DNA of 64,000 nt from Parasutterella muris (GTDB taxonomy: Bacteria; Pseudomonadota; Gammaproteobacteria; Burkholderiales; Burkholderiaceae_F). Position 1 is the stretch's first letter. Every line of letters starts with the position of its first letter. The stretch is taken from positions 1 to 64,000 of the forward strand of contig NZ_WSRP01000005.1 in assembly GCF_009767915.1 (NCBI RefSeq), read 5' to 3'. The position numbers and the translations under genes are program-made. Of this stretch, positions 4,402 to 51,036 are shown piece by piece. The notes under the pieces were generated by a model. That model saw only the letters and a program-made list of their open reading frames with translations. It did not search any database and was not told the DNA's origin.

Positions 4402-4872
4402 TGTGATATCCATTAAATATAAAAAAACTCAAGCAGCTAGTTCTGAGCTGTTAAATAATCCGTTTGACGCGGGGCTTAGACTGTCATTTTATTTTTCTTT
4501 GTTTTCCGGTAGATAACGTTTTCTTCTCAGTTTATCTAAAAATTTTGCCTTGCCATTCCTTCCGGGCCGGATCATTTTTTTTACCATCTTTTTAAAAACT
4601 GTTTAACTATATTTCCGAGCTTATTGGATTAATACGGGGTGTTTTGTAAGTTTAGTGTTCTTTAACTCTATGAAAATTGCGTAAATCGCAACAAGGAGGG
4701 GTGGATTTAATATTCATTGGATAACTTATTGTTTTAAAATTAAATAAATTTGAAATTTATTCATGTTCAGTCCAAGAGTTACGTATTTTCTTTGGAGGAA
4801 GTCGATAATCAGTGTAATACGGTGGAAATCTTTTCTTACAAAGATGATTCCCTTTTACTTCCAAGGAAGACT
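4402..4872. other. AT-rich region upstream of the autotransporter
   Basis: Nothing codes here except an upstream in-frame extension from 4750 that lacks a ribosome site. CAAGGAGG near 4690 is not followed by a useful start. The autotransporter promoter is expected here, but no clear -35/-10 pair could be chosen. Confidence 0.4.
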
Positions 4873-7800
4873 ATGAATAAAACCTATAAAGTCGTATTTA
4901 ATCCTGTCACTTCGACATGGACTCCGGTGAGTGAAGTTTCCAGATCTCGTGGAAAGTCCGGTCTGAGATCTTCTCTGTCCAAGTTGGCGATTGCCGTAGC
5001 GTGCGGACTCTTTTCGGTTTCGCATGCAGCAACGTATGATGCTTCCATTTACGCGCAGTCAGGTCAAACTGTCACGGTTAATCAGCCGGCCCTGACTATT
5101 GAAGGTACCGGTGGTGACGAGCCGATTATCGGCATTATTGCGGAGAGCGGTTCGGTCGTGAATGTTAATGCTGACATCGTTGACATGAACCTTACAGCAC
5201 CGATTTCCCATACTAAGGCGATTGTTGCGGCAGGGGGCGAAGGTCCAGGTGCACAGATTAATATGGATGCGAAGCAGATTTCCATCTTTATGAATGGCGG
5301 AGGGCGCGGAGTTGAGTCAAATTGGGGCTCTTCAATTAACATGAACGCCTCTGAATCGATTTTGATTTCTACAAGAGCGAATGTAGGCAAATCATATGGA
5401 ATTCTGGTTGACGGGTATGGCGGTGGCCAAGGCTCTACGCTTTCCATTCAGGCTCCGGATATTAAAGTTTCCACGTATGTGAGAGGCGAAAATGAAAACA
5501 GGATAGATGCTGTTTACCTTCGCTCTAATCAAATAAATCTCCATAGTCTCTCTCTTGGAACAGAAAACGCAAAGAATATTGCAATCGATCTGACGGTTGA
5601 AAAGACTGCTCCGGCTGCTAACGCTATTAACATAGCAGGAGGTTCCGCGGTTATCGGAAATAAAGATGCAGCAGTATCCATTAATGTTGTCAATAACGGT
5701 ATGGGAGAAACTTCCTACGCTCGCGGAATTCAGGTTACCGGGGAAGACAGCAGTCTCACAATAAATGCATCTCGCTTGGACGTTTCTGTAGCCAGTAACT
5801 TTAAGGCAGTAGCTTTCAGAGTTACTGACAACGCTTCAGTAACAGTCAATGCACCGACTTATGTCACAGTAAAAGGTGGAAGCAATCAGAATTATGCGAG
5901 TGAAGGCATCAGATCTTCATACGAAACAAACGGAATTTTTCCGGCTGCAACAGAATTTGTATTTAATAAGTCAGTAACTGTGGATGTCTCCGCAGAACAA
6001 GGTGCACGTGGCGTATGTGTTCTCAACGGACAACCTTCCAATATTTCAACGAGACCTAATGACCACGGCGGTTTGATAACTTTCAACTCTGACCTGACTG
6101 TCTCTGCAAATAGCTCAGGGAGAAACGCCAGGGGCATTGCTCTGGACAATGATTTCTTAGACGGAACACATCCGACAACTCCGCTTGGAGACCCTGGATC
6201 AGGCGCATTCCTTGTTGTTAAAGGCAATCTTTCATCGAATGCTGTTGCTAAGAGTAATGCGGTAGCTATTGATCTCAATGACAATGCCGGTCTCACGGCT
6301 GGTTCTCTGAACCTTTCTGCCGTGTCTCAAACTGCCGGTGCTTACGGTATCAATGTTGACGGCAGTACCGGAAATGTCTACGCCAGCGGCAGTGAAATGA
6401 ATATTTCCGCTGAATCCCAAGGTGATGGCGAAGAAGCTATGGCAGCGGGGGTTGCAGTTCAGGGCGGCAGTGTCACCTTAAGAGCTCCGGTTATTAATAT
6501 TTCCGCCAAAGCCCCGGAAGAAGCAGCATGGGCTGTTGGCCTTGCGCTTGACACAGGAGCGCATGTCAGCATTGGTCAGGAAGGCGCTAAAGTAACACTG
6601 AATTCCGTTGGTGTTGACAGTGATGCAATCTATATTGGCGATAGCGGAACAGTGGAACTTATCGGTTCTATTGATATTCCCAACGGAAATCTGGACATCG
6701 GCTACGGCGGTAATGTTACCGTTAAAGGCGACATCGCTTTGGATGACCTCGGAAGAATCAATCCCGATGGCGGTAACGCGCTCATGATCGACGGCCAGCT
6801 CACAACGACCAGTGACCAGGTTTTCCTTAAAGCCGCAGGCGAAAGCCAGGCAACGGTCGGCGGTCTTGTCTCCGGTCTTGACGGACGGATTAACTTTGCT
6901 CCCACAGGATCGGTTCTTGTTCTTACAGATCCGGTGTTCACGATGGAATATCTGAAGAGTGCGATGGCGACATACACTCGTCCGGAAACTATTACCATGA
7001 CCGGTAAAATGGTTGATCTGACCGCCGGCAACATCGGTGATCTGACCAATCCGAACCTGCCTTCGAGTACCTTAACCTGGAACAGCAGCATCACTATCAC
7101 AGGCAATCAAATCACCGGCAGCTATGCTGTGGTAGGTAACGTTGACATGGGCAACGGACAAACACTCGAAATCGATGCCGGAAAAGATAAGAATTTCACG
7201 ATTACCGGTGCAGGTGGAAGTCTCATTACTTCCCTTAAGCCTACCATCGAATTGGTGATTAAGAGTGAAGGGCAGCTGCAGCTTGGCGGCTCGGAACTCA
7301 CAGAAGACTCTACGCTTACCGGCAGCGTCGTTGCTCAGACTGATGCCGTTTTAAACATCAAAGGCGCCACAGGCAAAGAGCTGACGAACTTCCACATCAC
7401 CGGCAGTCTGACAGCAGATGCGAATGCACATGTCACGATCGATGACAATGCGCAGGTAAACATCTCTGATGTAGTGATCGGTAAGAACGCTCAGTTCACA
7501 ATTGGTTCGCCGCAGAATAAGAGCGGATTCGGCATGCTTCTGGCATCTACACTCAAGCAGATGGGGATTCTGTTCATTGATCCGGACTGGTCTGCTAAAC
7601 CCAGCCTGACGTTGGCAAACGAAGTTGAATTCGGCGCTGACTCTCAAACCGTTGTGGGTCAGAACTCTCAGCTGATCATCGGTTCTTCTGACGAAAACTT
7701 GATTGCAAACACTCTGTCAGCCAACAACCTTAAGTTTGCGGAAGACGGTATCACCGCTGCCGCTTATATTGCCAAGCCGATTAATTTAAACGGCGGCAGT

Positions 7801-9204
7801 TTCGTTGTTGACGGTTCTTTAAACGAGATTCCGGAAGCGGCACCCGGCTCGATGGTTATCGCAGAAAACGGCTTCCTTGGTGTAACGGCTGACAACGACT
7901 CTGCATTAGGCAAGTCGGTCTTGATTTCCGGTACAGATCTGAAGTTCGAAGAAGGCAGCTACCTGTATGTTGACCTTTCTGAAGTGACCGAAGGCGGCGA
8001 TCTGCAGCTCAAGCTTGCCGACAATGTTATCGGTTTGGAAGATGTGTATCAGAACAACCATCTGCTCTTTAAGGATTCCGGACTTTGGTTTGACTTTGCG
8101 GTTCAGGACGGTGTAATTACCGCTTCCTATGATCCGATCGGCCAGATGCCTGAATTAATCGCGCCGAATGTCATGCGTGAAGCCTTGATTAGCGGCGGTG
8201 CATATTCGGATACGATCCGTGATCTGATCTCCAACTTAGGCAGCGAAGGCGCTTCCCGCGAACTCAATCGCGCAGCTGCGGCCGGTGCGGCTTCCGGAGC
8301 CCAGATTGTTGCGCTGAACGCCGGTTCCATGATCATTGATTCAGTTGAACAGCATGGTTCTCTGCTGGCTGCTTACGCACATGATAAATCCGGTGCCGAT
8401 CTGTGGATTGATCTCAACAGCTCCTTCAGCAAGGCTTCTTCTTACGAAGTTGGCTCTGCCTCCTACGGTTATAAGAGTGACTTAGCCGGTGCGACAGTCG
8501 GTGTGGATTACGCATTTGGCAACGGCGCTGCCGCCGGTGTTGCGCTCAGTATCGGTACAGGTTCTCTGCGCGGCCAGAATCTTGGCTCCGGCGTCAAGAA
8601 CTCTGTTAACTATCAAGGTGTGAACCTCTACGGTACATGGGCAACAGAATATGCCAACATCATCGGTTCAATCGGTTATCTGCGCACAGAAAACAAGATC
8701 TCTTCTTCTCTGAGCTCCAAGCAGAAAGTTCACGGCAACAGCTTCACAGCCGCGGTTAGAGCAGAGAAGTCTCTTGAACTGAATCCGTCGATTACGGTAA
8801 CGCCTCATGTTGGAGTTCGTTATCTGCATACTGATATTGATGATGTCAAACTTGGCGTCTTCAAGTTCAGCAACAAGAAGACAAATCTTGTTCAGGTACC
8901 GTTCGGTGTTGCGTTTAATGCGAACCTCAAAGCGCCCTGCGGCGCAGAGGTTAAACCGTTCATTGATCTCACAATCGCTCCGGCGTTTGGTGATCGCAAG
9001 GTTAACAACAAGGTTGGTTATGCGGCCGGCTTAGCCAGCGATACGCTTGACACAAGAATCGCTGACAATGCGATGTATTCTGCGAAGATTGGTGTGAACG
9101 CCACTAAGGGCGCTCATTCCTTCACGCTGAATTACGGTATTGGCGGAGCTAACCACGGTCGTGTCGATCAGGCACTTCAGGCAGGTTACCGTTATTCCTT
9201 CTAA
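4873..9204 (+). CDS. Autotransporter (type Va) with extended signal peptide region
   Basis: The 1443-residue surface protein starts at the ATG at 4873: AAGGA precedes it, and it gives the conserved extended signal peptide region MNKTYKVVFNPVTSTWTPVS, followed by the hydrophobic core LAIAVACGLFSVSHA. Residues about 55-1090 form a passenger rich in short G/N/D-containing strands, as in right-handed beta-helix adhesins. A linker (about 1100-1165) contains the Ala-rich SRELNRAAAAGAASGAQ stretch. The last 275 residues are an autotransporter beta-domain ending in YRYSF with the terminal Phe used for BamA insertion. No catalytic triad or RGD was noticed, so adhesion or surface display is inferred. 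It stands alone, closed by a terminator at 9231-9264. Confidence 0.92.
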   Translation: MNKTYKVVFNPVTSTWTPVSEVSRSRGKSGLRSSLSKLAIAVACGLFSVSHAATYDASIYAQSGQTVTVNQPALTIEGTGGDEPIIGIIAESGSVVNVNADIVDMNLTAPISHTKAIVAAGGEGPGAQINMDAKQISIFMNGGGRGVESNWGSSINMNASESILISTRANVGKSYGILVDGYGGGQGSTLSIQAPDIKVSTYVRGENENRIDAVYLRSNQINLHSLSLGTENAKNIAIDLTVEKTAPAANAINIAGGSAVIGNKDAAVSINVVNNGMGETSYARGIQVTGEDSSLTINASRLDVSVASNFKAVAFRVTDNASVTVNAPTYVTVKGGSNQNYASEGIRSSYETNGIFPAATEFVFNKSVTVDVSAEQGARGVCVLNGQPSNISTRPNDHGGLITFNSDLTVSANSSGRNARGIALDNDFLDGTHPTTPLGDPGSGAFLVVKGNLSSNAVAKSNAVAIDLNDNAGLTAGSLNLSAVSQTAGAYGINVDGSTGNVYASGSEMNISAESQGDGEEAMAAGVAVQGGSVTLRAPVINISAKAPEEAAWAVGLALDTGAHVSIGQEGAKVTLNSVGVDSDAIYIGDSGTVELIGSIDIPNGNLDIGYGGNVTVKGDIALDDLGRINPDGGNALMIDGQLTTTSDQVFLKAAGESQATVGGLVSGLDGRINFAPTGSVLVLTDPVFTMEYLKSAMATYTRPETITMTGKMVDLTAGNIGDLTNPNLPSSTLTWNSSITITGNQITGSYAVVGNVDMGNGQTLEIDAGKDKNFTITGAGGSLITSLKPTIELVIKSEGQLQLGGSELTEDSTLTGSVVAQTDAVLNIKGATGKELTNFHITGSLTADANAHVTIDDNAQVNISDVVIGKNAQFTIGSPQNKSGFGMLLASTLKQMGILFIDPDWSAKPSLTLANEVEFGADSQTVVGQNSQLIIGSSDENLIANTLSANNLKFAEDGITAAAYIAKPINLNGGSFVVDGSLNEIPEAAPGSMVIAENGFLGVTADNDSALGKSVLISGTDLKFEEGSYLYVDLSEVTEGGDLQLKLADNVIGLEDVYQNNHLLFKDSGLWFDFAVQDGVITASYDPIGQMPELIAPNVMREALISGGAYSDTIRDLISNLGSEGASRELNRAAAAGAASGAQIVALNAGSMIIDSVEQHGSLLAAYAHDKSGADLWIDLNSSFSKASSYEVGSASYGYKSDLAGATVGVDYAFGNGAAAGVALSIGTGSLRGQNLGSGVKNSVNYQGVNLYGTWATEYANIIGSIGYLRTENKISSSLSSKQKVHGNSFTAAVRAEKSLELNPSITVTPHVGVRYLHTDIDDVKLGVFKFSNKKTNLVQVPFGVAFNANLKAPCGAEVKPFIDLTIAPAFGDRKVNNKVGYAAGLASDTLDTRIADNAMYSAKIGVNATKGAHSFTLNYGIGGANHGRVDQALQAGYRYSF

Positions 9205-11527: not shown

Positions 11528-12631
11528 TTATCCGCCGATATAGGACATTTCGATTTTGTGTTTCGCTCGTTCGGCGGAAGTTTCAGCAGTTCGTATTTCA
11601 GAGTAGTGGTCGTCCCTGGCACTCCAAATTCTGCCGATAGCGTCCTCAATTTCTTCGTCGGAGGCACCTCCTCGAAGCATCTGCCGAATGTCAAAACCTT
11701 CTGTGGCAAAGAGACATTTATAAAGCTTGCCGTCAACGGAAAGACGGATTCTTGAACATTCCCTGCAAAACGGTTCGCTCACAGAAGAAATAAATCCGAT
11801 TTCTCCCATACCGTCTTTGTAGCGCCAGCGGGTCGCGACTTCTCCCGGATAATTAGGATCAACGGGTTCGATCGGGTAGCGGCTGTTGATCTCTTCAACA
11901 ATTTGTCGTGAAGGAATCACATCGTCCATTCGCCAGCCGTTGGTTGCGCCCACATCCATGTATTCAATGTAGCGGACAATGACTCCAGTACCGCGGAAAT
12001 GTTCGGCGATCTTAATCAGCTCTTTTTCGTTCGTTCCGCGTTTAACGACAACGTTGATTTTCACAGACGAAATGCCGGCCTTTTGAGCTGCCTCGATGCC
12101 TGCGAGCGTGCGCTCGATCGGGAAATCCACATCGTTGAGCTGCTTGTAAATTTCCGCATCCATGGCGTCAAGCGATACGGTAAGCCGCTTTAGACCGGCC
12201 GCGGCAAGCGCCTTTGCTTTGGCCTGAAGCGCGGAACCGTTCGTTGTCAGGGCGACGTCCAAGGGTTTGCCGTTCCAGGTTTTAAGTTTGCCGAGTTCGG
12301 TGATCAGATTTTCAATACCTTTGCGCAGAAGCGGCTCTCCGCCCGTAAGACGAATCTTTTCGACGCCGTTTTCAACAGCGATCCGAGCAAGGCGAATGAT
12401 TTCTTCAAAAGAGAGAATTTCTGTGTGTGCAAGGAATAAATGTTCTTTTTCAAACTTTTCCTTGGGCATACAGTAGCGGCAGCGGAAGTTGCATCGATCG
12501 GTCACGGAAATACGAATATCCCGCAGCGGTCTGCCGCGGGTATCTACCCAGTGCGCTCCCTCCCGGTGAACTTCTCCGGCCAGGGGAATCGTTTTGGTGA
12601 TGTATTTGATCGGTATAACTTTTCTGCTCAT
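11528..12631 (-). CDS. moaA: GTP 3',8-cyclase MoaA
   Basis: A radical SAM enzyme that makes the first step of molybdenum cofactor synthesis, converting GTP to the 3',8-cyclo product. The 367-residue protein has the N-terminal cluster motif CNFRCRYCMP, the SAM-binding TGGEPLLRKG, and the C-terminal second Fe-S cluster region with PFCRECSRIRLSVDGK and later CLFA. It ends in Gly-Gly, as MoaA needs for activity. No other moa/moe gene is beside it; fdhD at 45 kb is another gene for the molybdoenzyme formate dehydrogenase. The upstream region carries three spaced 16-base sites. Confidence 0.96.
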   Translation of the reverse strand: MSRKVIPIKYITKTIPLAGEVHREGAHWVDTRGRPLRDIRISVTDRCNFRCRYCMPKEKFEKEHLFLAHTEILSFEEIIRLARIAVENGVEKIRLTGGEPLLRKGIENLITELGKLKTWNGKPLDVALTTNGSALQAKAKALAAAGLKRLTVSLDAMDAEIYKQLNDVDFPIERTLAGIEAAQKAGISSVKINVVVKRGTNEKELIKIAEHFRGTGVIVRYIEYMDVGATNGWRMDDVIPSRQIVEEINSRYPIEPVDPNYPGEVATRWRYKDGMGEIGFISSVSEPFCRECSRIRLSVDGKLYKCLFATEGFDIRQMLRGGASDEEIEDAIGRIWSARDDHYSEIRTAETSAERAKHKIEMSYIGG

Positions 12632-13049
12632 TCGTGCCTGTATTTTTTGTGAACGCTAATCATATACCTAGGAAGGTTTTGGGTCATTACGGTATCCGCA
12701 TTAATCTCTATTAAACCACATTGCATTCAGGCGTTCGAGATTCAAGTATGTGAAAAAGACCACACTTTATCGTCTCTCTAAATAAGCGTCGCAGAAGATA
12801 AGTGTTCAGGGAGAAGCGAGCATGATCCGAACCGTTTATTGTGTGCAAAAGACCACAAACTCGCTGTGACATTGAAATCAAGGTGTTAGCCTGTTATTTG
12901 CGAACCAAAGCCGTTTCGGTCTGACTGTAAACTATGCGCAAAAGACCACAAAATTATCGGAACCACTGTGCCGCAGATAAAGTCGTTATTTCTTGTTTCT
13001 TTGGAATATATTGCATAAACACAGGCGCAACTTTTGGTAATCTTAAACA
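12632..13049. other. Divergent moaA-rarA intergenic region
   Basis: These 418 bases hold the moaA promoter (minus) and the rarA promoter (plus). The only clear structure is the set of three 16-base sites at exact 93-base spacing. No gene is seen. Confidence 0.6.
12749..12950 (+). promoter_or_regulatory. Three 16-base sites at exact 93-base spacing
   Basis: TGTGAAAAAGACCACA (12749-12764), TGTGCAAAAGACCACA (12842-12857) and TGCGCAAAAGACCACA (12935-12950) share 14 of 16 positions. Their starts are exactly 93 bases apart. Sequence between them is not conserved. The ends TGTG/CACA are complementary, as in a binding site for a dimer. A spacing close to nine helical turns would put all three on one DNA face. 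The regulator is unknown. Confidence 0.6.
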
Positions 13050-14486
13050 ATGGAACAATATCTTTTTGCACTTACGCCCGACAGCGCAGAGGAGCCGAAC
13101 AAGGCTTCAAAGAGCGCTTCGTCCGGGCGTGTTAAACAAGCGGCCGATAAGGCTTCGCCTTTAGCTGAAAGGCTCAGGCCGCAGACCATTGACGAAGTTG
13201 TCGGACAGAAGCATTTACTCGGTCCGGGACAGCCGCTGCGCAGCGCCTTTGAGAATGCGCACCCGCACTCCATGATTCTGTGGGGACCTCCGGGCGTTGG
13301 TAAGACAACGCTCGCAAGGCTTATGGCAAACGCATTTGATTTGCCCTTTATTTCAATCTCCGCAGTGCTCGGAGGCGTCAAGGATATCCGTGACGCTGTG
13401 GAAAAGGCCACAGAAAATCGTCAGAAAACCGGATGCTCGACCGTCGTGTTCGTCGATGAAGTGCATCGCTTTTCTAAAAGTCAGCAGGACGCGTTTCTGC
13501 CGCATGTTGAGAGCGGTCTGTTTACCTTTATCGGCGCGACAACCGAAAATCCCAGTTTTGAGGTCATTTCCGCGCTTTTATCCCGCTCTTCGGTTTATGT
13601 GCTCGAATCATTAAAGGAAGACGATCTGCTGGAGCTGCTTGATCGGGCGCTCAAGCGTGAGTATCCGACGCTGACTGTTACCGATGAGGCAAAGAAGATT
13701 CTGACGGGGCTCGCCGACGGCGACGCGCGCCGATTCCTGAACGCTTTGGAAGTCTCCGCGACTATGGCGCTTGACCGCGGTGTCACAGTGCTCGATGATA
13801 AATTTGTCCGCAAGGCACTCCCGGCAACCATTCGGCGTTTTGATAAGGGCGGAGATAATTTCTATGACACGATTTCCGCGCTTCATAAATCGGTGCGGGG
13901 ATCAGACCCGGACGCGGCGCTCTATTGGATGTGCCGCATGCTCGATGGCGGAGTGGACCCGCTTTATATCGCGCGTCGTCTCATGCGGATGGCTGTCGAG
14001 GATATCGGACTTGCTGATCCAAGAGCAATGGAAGTGACAACGAATGCGGTCGATATTTATGAACGCCTGGGCTCACCCGAAGGAGAGCTCGCACTTGCCA
14101 ACGCGGTGGTTTACCTTTCCGTAGCTCCTAAGTCCATCAGTGTCTATCAGGCATTTAATAAAATGCGCGCCTTTGTAAAAAAGGACGGAACGAGACCCGT
14201 TCCGATGCATATCAGAAACGCGCCGACCAAGCTGATGAAAGATATCGGCAGCGGAGCGGGGTATCGCTATCCTCCGGACGAGCCGGGATCCTTTGCGGCA
14301 GGCGTGAAATATTTTCCGGATGAAATCCGAGAATATCGGGTTTATGAACCCTCGGACCGCGGAATGGAAATCAAGATTCGCGACAAACTTGAAAGTCTTC
14401 GCGCACTCAATGCCGAGGCTCGGCGCGGTCAAATGCCGTCCGGTAAGAAAGTCGGTACGCGTCATGCGAGCGAAAAAGAGGGTTAA
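13050..14486 (+). CDS. rarA: Replication-associated recombination ATPase RarA
   Basis: RarA (MgsA) is an AAA+ ATPase related to clamp loaders that acts at stalled replication forks. The 478-residue protein shows [17 protein letters not shown], Walker [10 protein letters not shown] near residue 80, Walker B VVFVDEVH near 131, the sensor segment [11 protein letters not shown], and a C-terminal tetramerisation region with the conserved APTKLMK. A charged N-terminal extension of about 30 residues precedes the conserved part. It lies directly before serS, a common order in Burkholderiales (lolA-rarA-serS), though no lolA is present here. Confidence 0.95.
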
Positions 14487-45937: not shown

Positions 45938-46545
45938 GTACTGTTTTCTTTTTTCGCCAAAAAAGGTTCAGCCCCTTCAGCGGATAGTTGTTTAACGACA
46001 AAGACAATGATACCGAGAACTCTCCAGTCTCCGCTAGGCTGAATATACAAATTTGAGCGCTCTTTTGGCGTCTCTCCGTCATTGACAAAGCAGCGGATGG
46101 AGTAGCCGTTTGCTGTGTGAACGACGACCAAATCTCCCTGTTTCGGCTTTTGTGTGCGGTCGACGATAAGCAGGTCTCCGGCTTCGATGCCTTTTTCCTT
46201 CATTTCATCGTCATCGGCGATGCAGAACACCGTCTCTTCCGGATTTTTAATGAGGCAGCTCGATATCGGATCCCGCTCGTCGGATTTGAAATAGTTACCG
46301 ACGGAAGTCAGGCTGGCAAGACTTTCCGGATTCGGGATGACAGCGCATTTATCAGGAGATTTAATGATCTGCTCTCTTATCCAGGAAGAGCCTCCAAGCT
46401 TATGAAGCTTGGCAATGAGCGGCGCAGTCAGAACCACAGTGGTTACTTTTGCCGCCCCAGCATATGGTCCGGGTTTTCTGCCGGATCCGGCTCTTTTACC
46501 GCCCCAACCGTTCTTTGTCGTCTTGGCTGTAATTTCATTTTTCAT
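45916..46545 (-). CDS. LexA/UmuD-like S24 protein lacking the catalytic dyad
   Basis: The 209-residue protein has an N-terminal basic GWGGKRAGSGRKPG segment, then a module V.TT..L..KL.KLGGSSWIREQI (residues 34-60), and a C-terminal S24-type beta domain with GIEAGDLLIVDR. In LexA/UmuD the catalytic Ser sits in a GDSM/GMSM motif; here the aligned sequence is ADDDEM with Glu114 in its place, and the Lys is replaced near YSIRC (Arg151). So it should not self-cleave. It may bind DNA or partners without proteolysis. Its stop overlaps fdhD. The module recurs in the gene at 50572. Confidence 0.75.
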   Translation of the reverse strand: MKNEITAKTTKNGWGGKRAGSGRKPGPYAGAAKVTTVVLTAPLIAKLHKLGGSSWIREQIIKSPDKCAVIPNPESLASLTSVGNYFKSDERDPISSCLIKNPEETVFCIADDDEMKEKGIEAGDLLIVDRTQKPKQGDLVVVHTANGYSIRCFVNDGETPKERSNLYIQPSGDWRVLGIIVFVVKQLSAEGAEPFLAKKENSTCQMNQQ

Positions 46546-50571: not shown

Positions 50572-51036
50572 TCAGAGTTCGCCGATACGCGCCATTCTGA
50601 TCTGATTGCGGATCCAGGAGGAGCCGCCAAGCAGCTTGAGCTTGTCCTTTTCTTCCTGTCTTAAAAGAATTGTCGTTCTGACAAGCGGTTTGTCATCGAG
50701 CGCCGGACGGCCTCTTTTGGCAATTGCCCACTGCAGAGATAAAGAGCTTTCCAAGTCTCCTTTGTTCTCCTCTTCTCTGTGGAGGAAAGCCGCCAATCGA
50801 AGAATGTCGTCTTTCAGCTGAACCAGAGCGTCTTTGAAGTTCTCATTTTCTTTGGTTGTGTTGGAGGGAACATCGATCGGGAAAATTTCTTTCTCAGTTA
50901 CCTTGGCGGATCCGAAGCAGCCGGCCTGTGTAAAGAAATAGGCATAGTAGAAACGGTCCTCACCGATATAGTCATTGTCATTGCGGCGAAGTTCGACTCG
51001 GACGTCGACGATGTTTTTCTTGAGCGTTACAGTCAT
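50572..51036 (-). CDS. Hypothetical protein with GGSSWIR module
   Basis: A 154-residue protein unknown to me. Residues 1-100 look like an alpha/beta domain without motifs. Residues 109-146 (KRGRP...LVRTTILLRQEEKDKLKLL then GGSSWIRNQI) match a module in the S24-like protein at 45916 (GRKPG...KVTTVVL...KLHKLGGSSWIREQI). The beta strand plus helix resembles a ribbon-helix-helix DNA-binding unit after a basic GRP linker. A strong GGAGG ribosome site precedes the start. The two genes lie on either side of cadR-cadA. Function unknown. Confidence 0.72.
   Translation of the reverse strand: MTVTLKKNIVDVRVELRRNDNDYIGEDRFYYAYFFTQAGCFGSAKVTEKEIFPIDVPSNTTKENENFKDALVQLKDDILRLAAFLHREEENKGDLESSLSLQWAIAKRGRPALDDKPLVRTTILLRQEEKDKLKLLGGSSWIRNQIRMARIGEL

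Follow-up and report, generated by a model that had tools for sequence, protein, structure and literature searches.

Detailed knowledge of how bacteria coordinate an additional replicon with their main chromosome comes, as far as we are aware, mainly from Vibrio. RctB, the initiator of Vibrio cholerae chromosome 2, binds eight regions on Chr1 according to PMC11711613, and most of them hold iteron-like or 29/39-mer-like sites; only crtS is presented there as a strong enhancer, mutation of three prominent RctB sites had minimal effects, one of them weak but significant, and most of the chromosomal RctB sites had little measured effect. On Rep_3 plasmids such as F (RepE), pPS10 (RepA) and those of Acinetobacter (RepM), an array of 21- to 22-bp direct repeats of an asymmetric site stands just upstream of the gene for the Rep_3 initiator. 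Rep_3 plasmids with rRNA operons are also known, from Aureimonas, Oecophyllibacter and Persicobacteraceae (PMC10645730).

We analysed a 64,000-nucleotide stretch of Parasutterella muris DNA, called the window below, in which three copies of a short site lie between moaA and rarA. These sites are probably chromosomal iterons of a Rep_3 initiator encoded on another contig of the genome, C92, with control of the Rep replicon as the leading, though open, option for what they do. Iterons and Rep_3 origins are established kinds of element, and so are initiator sites located on a main chromosome. In the literature that we searched on Parasutterella plasmids, replication initiation and iterons, the motif, the host and a widely spaced chromosomal array of this sort are not described.

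A sequence-only reading of the window had reported three 16-base sites starting at 12749, 12842 and 12935. A site search recovered them at those positions (12749-12764, 12842-12857 and 12935-12950, with 1, 0 and 1 mismatches, all on the + strand), 93 and 93 bp apart from start to start. At up to 3 mismatches, the 16-mer had four matches in the whole window for 0.59 expected, a number reached in 1 of 100 shuffles; the fourth, at 13397-13412 with 2 mismatches, falls within rarA and is possibly a chance match. The site proper is 18 bp long, begins two bases before the 16-mer and is flanked by AT-rich sequence (TATGNGNAAAAGACCACA; Table 1). All three copies lie in a divergent gap of 418 bp, 109-295 bp upstream of rarA and 124-310 bp upstream of moaA. 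The window seems to be ordinary chromosome, because rarA, whose product acts at forks, adjoins serS in 8 of the 9 genomes with a full-length rarA.

Table 1. Positions of the sites and of the neighbouring genes. Locations are window positions unless a locus or contig name precedes them.
Feature	Location	Strand	Details
Chromosomal iteron 1, TATGTGAAAAAGACCACA	12747..12764	+	0 mismatches to TATGNGNAAAAGACCACA; weight-matrix score 32.4 of 32.4
Chromosomal iteron 2, TGTGTGCAAAAGACCACA	12840..12857	+	1 mismatch to TATGNGNAAAAGACCACA; weight-matrix score 26.3
Chromosomal iteron 3, TATGCGCAAAAGACCACA	12933..12950	+	0 mismatches to TATGNGNAAAAGACCACA; weight-matrix score 28.1
Weak match within rarA	13395..13412	+	3 mismatches to TATGNGNAAAAGACCACA; weight-matrix score 15.6
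moaA, left neighbour	11528..12631	-	TIGR02666 374 bits, cut-off 284
rarA (replication-associated AAA ATPase), right neighbour	13050..14486	+	Best NCBIfam matches RarA-type AAA ATPases, under model cut-offs
Array upstream of rep on C92, starts	C92: 3363, 3384, 3417, 3438, 3470, 3492, 3514		Spacings 21, 33, 21, 32, 22, 22 bp
ihfA cluster, P. muris (C31)	L043:2236-4079		5 sites
ihfA cluster, P. excrementihominis (C23)	L108:1955-3748		6 sites
Hairpin site pair	L042:4710-4749		z -8.4
Hairpin site pair	L043:2229-2279		z -3.4
Hairpin site pair	L105:2339-2390		z -8.1
Hairpin site pair	L108:3704-3754		z -4.4

The two equal spacings are a fact, but as evidence from three sites they are modest; no 93-bp spacing occurred among the other site spacings, which were taken by hand. 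The reading's proposal that the sites share one face of the DNA is doubtful, 93 bp being 8.86 turns at 10.5 bp. Phasing was not significant over seven longer, hand-chosen site spacings (p = 0.11), as against p = 0.0015 for the array on C92 described below.

Other contents of the gap were also considered. An RNA element was discarded, the sole Rfam match near the gap being an lncRNA family far under its gathering score, and so was a plasmid remnant, the likeness to the Rep contigs being limited to the sites and a few bases. Scans with the consensus sequences found no DnaA box match in the gap and a single IHF match at 12876-12888 (WATCARNNNNTTR), between sites 2 and 3. Elsewhere in the window, 46054-46521 and 50590-50706 on the - strand are similar to an S24-like protein with a GGxRPGAGRK-type N-terminus, perhaps belonging to a prophage, and a 1,484-aa open frame on the + strand (4750-9204) has an end that, by eye, is autotransporter-barrel-like.

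The motif is enriched in the genome as a whole. Its exact 11-base core, AAAAGACCACA, occurs 29 times in the 2.71 Mb of P. muris, and the reversed control 0 times. The cores are distributed over C92 (15), C31 (5), C91, which holds the window (3), C86 (2), and C42, C48, C66 and C135 (1 each); those on C48, C66 and C135 are probably chance matches, because they fall within coding sequence and have weak flanks. That 15 of the 29 lie on the contig that encodes Rep speaks for Rep as the binder. Both this enrichment and the lack of a tandem duplication (see below) support the idea, put forward in the sequence-only reading, that these would be sites of a binding type.

We profiled 59 sites, allowing up to 2 mismatches for the 32 on the two Rep contigs and up to 1 for the 27 others. 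Position 5 was T in 32, A in 20 and C in 7, while the base that would pair with it in the other half was nearly constant; as the sites had been chosen with a search pattern, only positions 5 and 7 and the flanks are independent of that pattern, which itself included the near-constant half. Because position 5 varies while its would-be partner hardly does, the site is asymmetric, as expected for an iteron taken by one Rep monomer. The symmetric TGTG/CACA dyad, and with it the dimer proposed earlier, was therefore given up, whereas the accompanying remark that the sequence between the sites is not conserved stands. A coding motif (ATG-NGN-AAA-AGA-CCA-CA) was rejected as well: in that frame many sites read ATG-TGA, a start followed at once by a stop, so that they have no peptide in common.

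The contig richest in cores, C92 (7,390 bp; L042), codes for an EamA transporter, a DnaB helicase, a Rep_3 initiator, ParB and ParA. Seven copies of the site, six strong and one weak, form an array between dnaB and rep, just upstream of rep, and their spacings approximate whole helical turns (R = 0.95, p = 0.0015). Iteron origins are built in this way. Rep matched PF01051, the Rep_3 WH1 domain, at 105.5 bits (cut-off 22.4), the RepM model NF038290 at 142.5 bits, under the cut-off of 250, and by sequence the pPS10 RepA domain 1hkq (E 2.3e-14). A single-sequence structure model of low confidence (pLDDT 51) had its best matches in RepE-DNA complexes (E 5.8e-9, TM-score 0.41 by target) and a weaker one in RctB (E 5.6e-3).

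Among the best 30 of 2,871 matching records, the C92 Rep was less than 30% identical to the best plasmid Reps. Of those records we examined four Acinetobacter and Moraxella Rep_3 plasmids (Reps 28.8-29.6% identical to that of C92), and in all four a tandem array with a period of 21-22 lay upstream of rep; one Acinetobacter array unit, CTAACTATGAGGGATTGACTA, has the TATGAG half in common with our motif. Unlike in these plasmids, the P. muris site is also present at widely spaced chromosomal places. The C92 DnaB is the second of this genome, a separate one being encoded on C54. Since a DnaA above the family cut-off is encoded as well, here and in 38 of the 41 genomes searched, we rejected the idea that Rep runs the chromosome instead of DnaA. 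No relatives of Rep were confirmed in viral contigs. Another P. muris contig, C101 (L115; 4,214 bp), codes for a Rep_3-type protein 25% identical to the C92 Rep and is probably a circular plasmid, because it has a 77-base direct terminal overlap.

C92 ends in repeats. Its first 145-307 bp are common to six other contig ends and carry what we take by eye to be a boxA-like rRNA leader, that is, a 16S-leader flank. A stretch of 38-85 bp near the other end is similar to four contig ends that presumably run into 5S sequence (a 5S-terminator flank, again recognised by eye), and this 5S-like flank is cut short by a 77-mer common to the starts of two other contigs. Both putative rRNA-operon flanks are co-directional, as partly read by eye, and there are several further flanks of this type elsewhere in the genome. 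Rfam named no 5S in the C92-end pieces, and a 16S search of the three genus genomes found none, with a positive control detected in 9 of 14 known genomes. C92 may thus be either a small circle that carries an rRNA operon or a piece of the chromosome lying between two such operons; the second possibility fits equally well. A small Rep_3/ParAB unit with both ends apparently in co-directional rRNA-operon flanks is reminiscent of the plasmids with rRNA operons; unlike in the case of C92, the portion of PMC10645730 that deals with them leaves chromosomal iterons unmentioned. On a further P. muris contig, C95 (L186), positions 5830-6480 hold three 83-nt tRNA genes with equal scores, spaced 188 bp apart, and a further two tRNA genes come after them.

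Within the family, the motif goes with the initiator. Parasutterella excrementihominis YIT 11859 (G002) has 33 cores and a Rep 73% identical to that of C92, the two proteins being 91% identical over residues 39-258 and 52% over 259-372. Its rep contig, C41 (corresponding to NZ_GL883714.1), has the array upstream of rep with spacings of 21/33/21/32/22 as on C92, and degenerate members such as TATGTGATTTTTACCACA are in register. Core counts over 67 family genomes were 29 in P. muris, 33 in P. excrementihominis, 1 in a third genome of the genus (G001), which is without a close Rep, and 0-5 in the other 64. A close Rep was present in the first two only; six others have Reps 24-30% identical, and 0-2 cores. 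Motif enrichment thus tracks the close Rep across the 67 genomes, although the genus itself is represented by three genomes, two of them with a close Rep. At up to 1 mismatch, the 18-mer had 26 sites in P. muris, 29 in P. excrementihominis and none in G001, where none appeared at up to 2 mismatches either. Genomes without the Rep are not entirely free of the motif: one from another genus with no Rep match (G082; 5 cores) has 3 sites at 1 mismatch, so a few sites arise without this Rep.

The sequence-only reading had counted absence from close relatives against itself, and here the outcome is divided. The array is missing at rarA in both congeners: G001 has kept the moaA-rarA-serS order with a shorter, unrelated gap that contains no sites, and in P. 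excrementihominis neither moaA nor serS lies near rarA within the 4.4 kb compared, and no site was found on the contig concerned (C35). The site itself, in contrast, is abundant in P. excrementihominis, which has the same Rep.

Off the Rep contigs there are 27 sites at up to 1 mismatch, 13 in P. muris and 14 in P. excrementihominis. By hand count, 10 of the 13 (p = 1e-6) and 8 of the 14 (p = 3e-4), 18 in total, are intergenic and 9 of the 27 lie in coding sequence; with neighbours merged, 9 of 17 places are intergenic (p = 3e-4). These p-values assume a 15% non-coding share, and the ORFs come from a longest-ORF script, four C31 sites in unsupported short ORFs having been counted by hand as intergenic. 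Only one of the comparable off-contig clusters is common to both species. It lies between an ABC transporter operon (Bmp), an S24/UmuD-like gene and the IHF-alpha gene, whose products score 112.6 and 113.6 against NF001401, just above the cut-off of 111, with TIGR00987 below its own cut-off. IHF works with RctB at Vibrio ori2, according to PMC11711613.

Some of the sites have features of their own. Four convergent pairs would fold into hairpins that are perfect or nearly so and end in T-rich tails, like bidirectional terminators made of two iterons (Table 1). A full-strength site (L133:5308-5325) lies inside a gene of an apparent prophage on C42; the first 60 residues of that gene product recur on IMGVR_UViG_2889436542_000002, with a site at L168:657-674. 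In viral contigs, the 18-mer was found in 13 stretches with one match each, of which one (L168) was inspected.

The sequence-only reading could name no regulator for its site; the C92 Rep_3 initiator is now the candidate, by predicted binding. The same motif makes up the phased arrays that precede rep on C92 and its P. excrementihominis orthologue, and family knowledge suggests that one Rep monomer would be bound per site via its two winged-helix domains. In both of these steps we have considerable confidence. In the following step, the least certain and one that we put forward tentatively, Rep at the chromosomal array would have the Rep replicon as its target, and not moaA or rarA. The array would keep the initiator away from the plasmid-type origin (Rep titration) or would pair ("handcuff") with the origin iterons by Rep-Rep contacts, and initiation of the Rep replicon would then depend on chromosome dose. 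We favour control of the Rep replicon because the gap holds near-consensus iterons in a directly repeated set, the same site as at the origin (Table 1), and because a promoter scan gave nothing beyond chance. Against the reading as a whole stand the absence of the array at rarA in the two congeners, the spacing of 93 bp, compared with 21-33 bp at the origin, the sites in G082, the 9 off-contig sites in coding sequence and the small measured effect of most chromosomal RctB sites.

Alternatively, Rep might bind in order to regulate the transcription of rarA, moaA or both. Repression of their own promoter is within the abilities of Rep proteins, the sites are within a divergent promoter gap, most off-contig sites are intergenic by hand count, and the cluster common to both species adjoins ihfA and the S24/UmuD-like gene. 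However, the scan of the region found a single promoter-like site, on the moaA strand, where shuffles give 0.8, and it overlaps no iteron; the array is missing at rarA in the relatives; and RctB sites in two promoters are described in PMC11711613 as having a minimal effect on transcription, one weak but significant. We therefore regard such regulation as unlikely. We would give a little more weight, though still not much, to sites that bind Rep with no selected role, as iterons that recombination or earlier insertions had scattered and drift had preserved. In its favour, site positions differ between the species, with the ihfA cluster alone in common among the off-contig clusters that could be compared, and some full-strength sites are within coding sequence, including the prophage gene; three near-consensus sites evenly spaced in one gap, the intergenic excess (on the 15% assumption) and the lack of plasmid sequence around the sites past a few bases argue the other way.

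The binder might also be a chromosomal regulator, for example the S24/UmuD-like protein encoded at the C31/C23 cluster, or the C92 ParB, rather than Rep. The sites do flank the S24-like gene in both species, and parB lies among sites on the Rep contig. Yet S24-like proteins are present in 39 of the 67 family genomes, mostly without motif enrichment, and the one at the cluster is 44% identical between the two species, with the motif unchanged. ParB is 59% identical, and ParB sites are usually palindromes; moreover, direct repeats in phase ahead of rep are what an iteron array looks like. This makes a binder other than Rep quite improbable. As for an old 93-bp tandem duplication that would have produced the three copies without any binding, the alternative offered in the sequence-only reading, its basis is the two equal spacings. 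With the site itself set aside, identity between the 93-bp units is 24%, 24% and 32%, at the chance level (shuffled mean 25%, sd 5%); the units otherwise share matches of at most 7 bases, so that we attach next to no probability to it.

Under the preferred reading, with the three sites as chromosomal iterons of the C92 Rep, the closest parallel would be RctB, likewise a plasmid-type initiator that serves one replicon and has iteron-like sites on the main chromosome, with binding predicted in our case. Our case differs from it in the host class, in the Rep_3 initiator, in the direct array of three sites and in the weakness of the RctB fold match (E 5.6e-3, from a low-confidence model). The V. 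cholerae parallel would cut both for and against a control role. Like crtS of Vibrio, the array is an intergenic chromosomal element expected to act on the initiator of another replicon; the two are not to be identified, since crtS is without similarity to the RctB iterons, as PMC11711613 has it, whereas the window sites are full-strength iterons.

The analysis turns a site of an unknown regulator into a prediction with a named protein, Rep. In two species of a genus from the human gut, the iterons of a small Rep_3 replicon that encodes a DnaB and ParAB of its own are also found on the chromosome, which gives a second case, independent of Vibrio, in which the coordination of replicons can be tested. 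It may even be, though we judge this rather improbable, that the ihfA cluster and the moaA-rarA array function together as a checkpoint that ties initiation of the Rep_3 replicon, possibly one with an rRNA operon, to chromosome copy number. If true, a gut betaproteobacterium would possess an equivalent of Vibrio crtS that is built from iterons.
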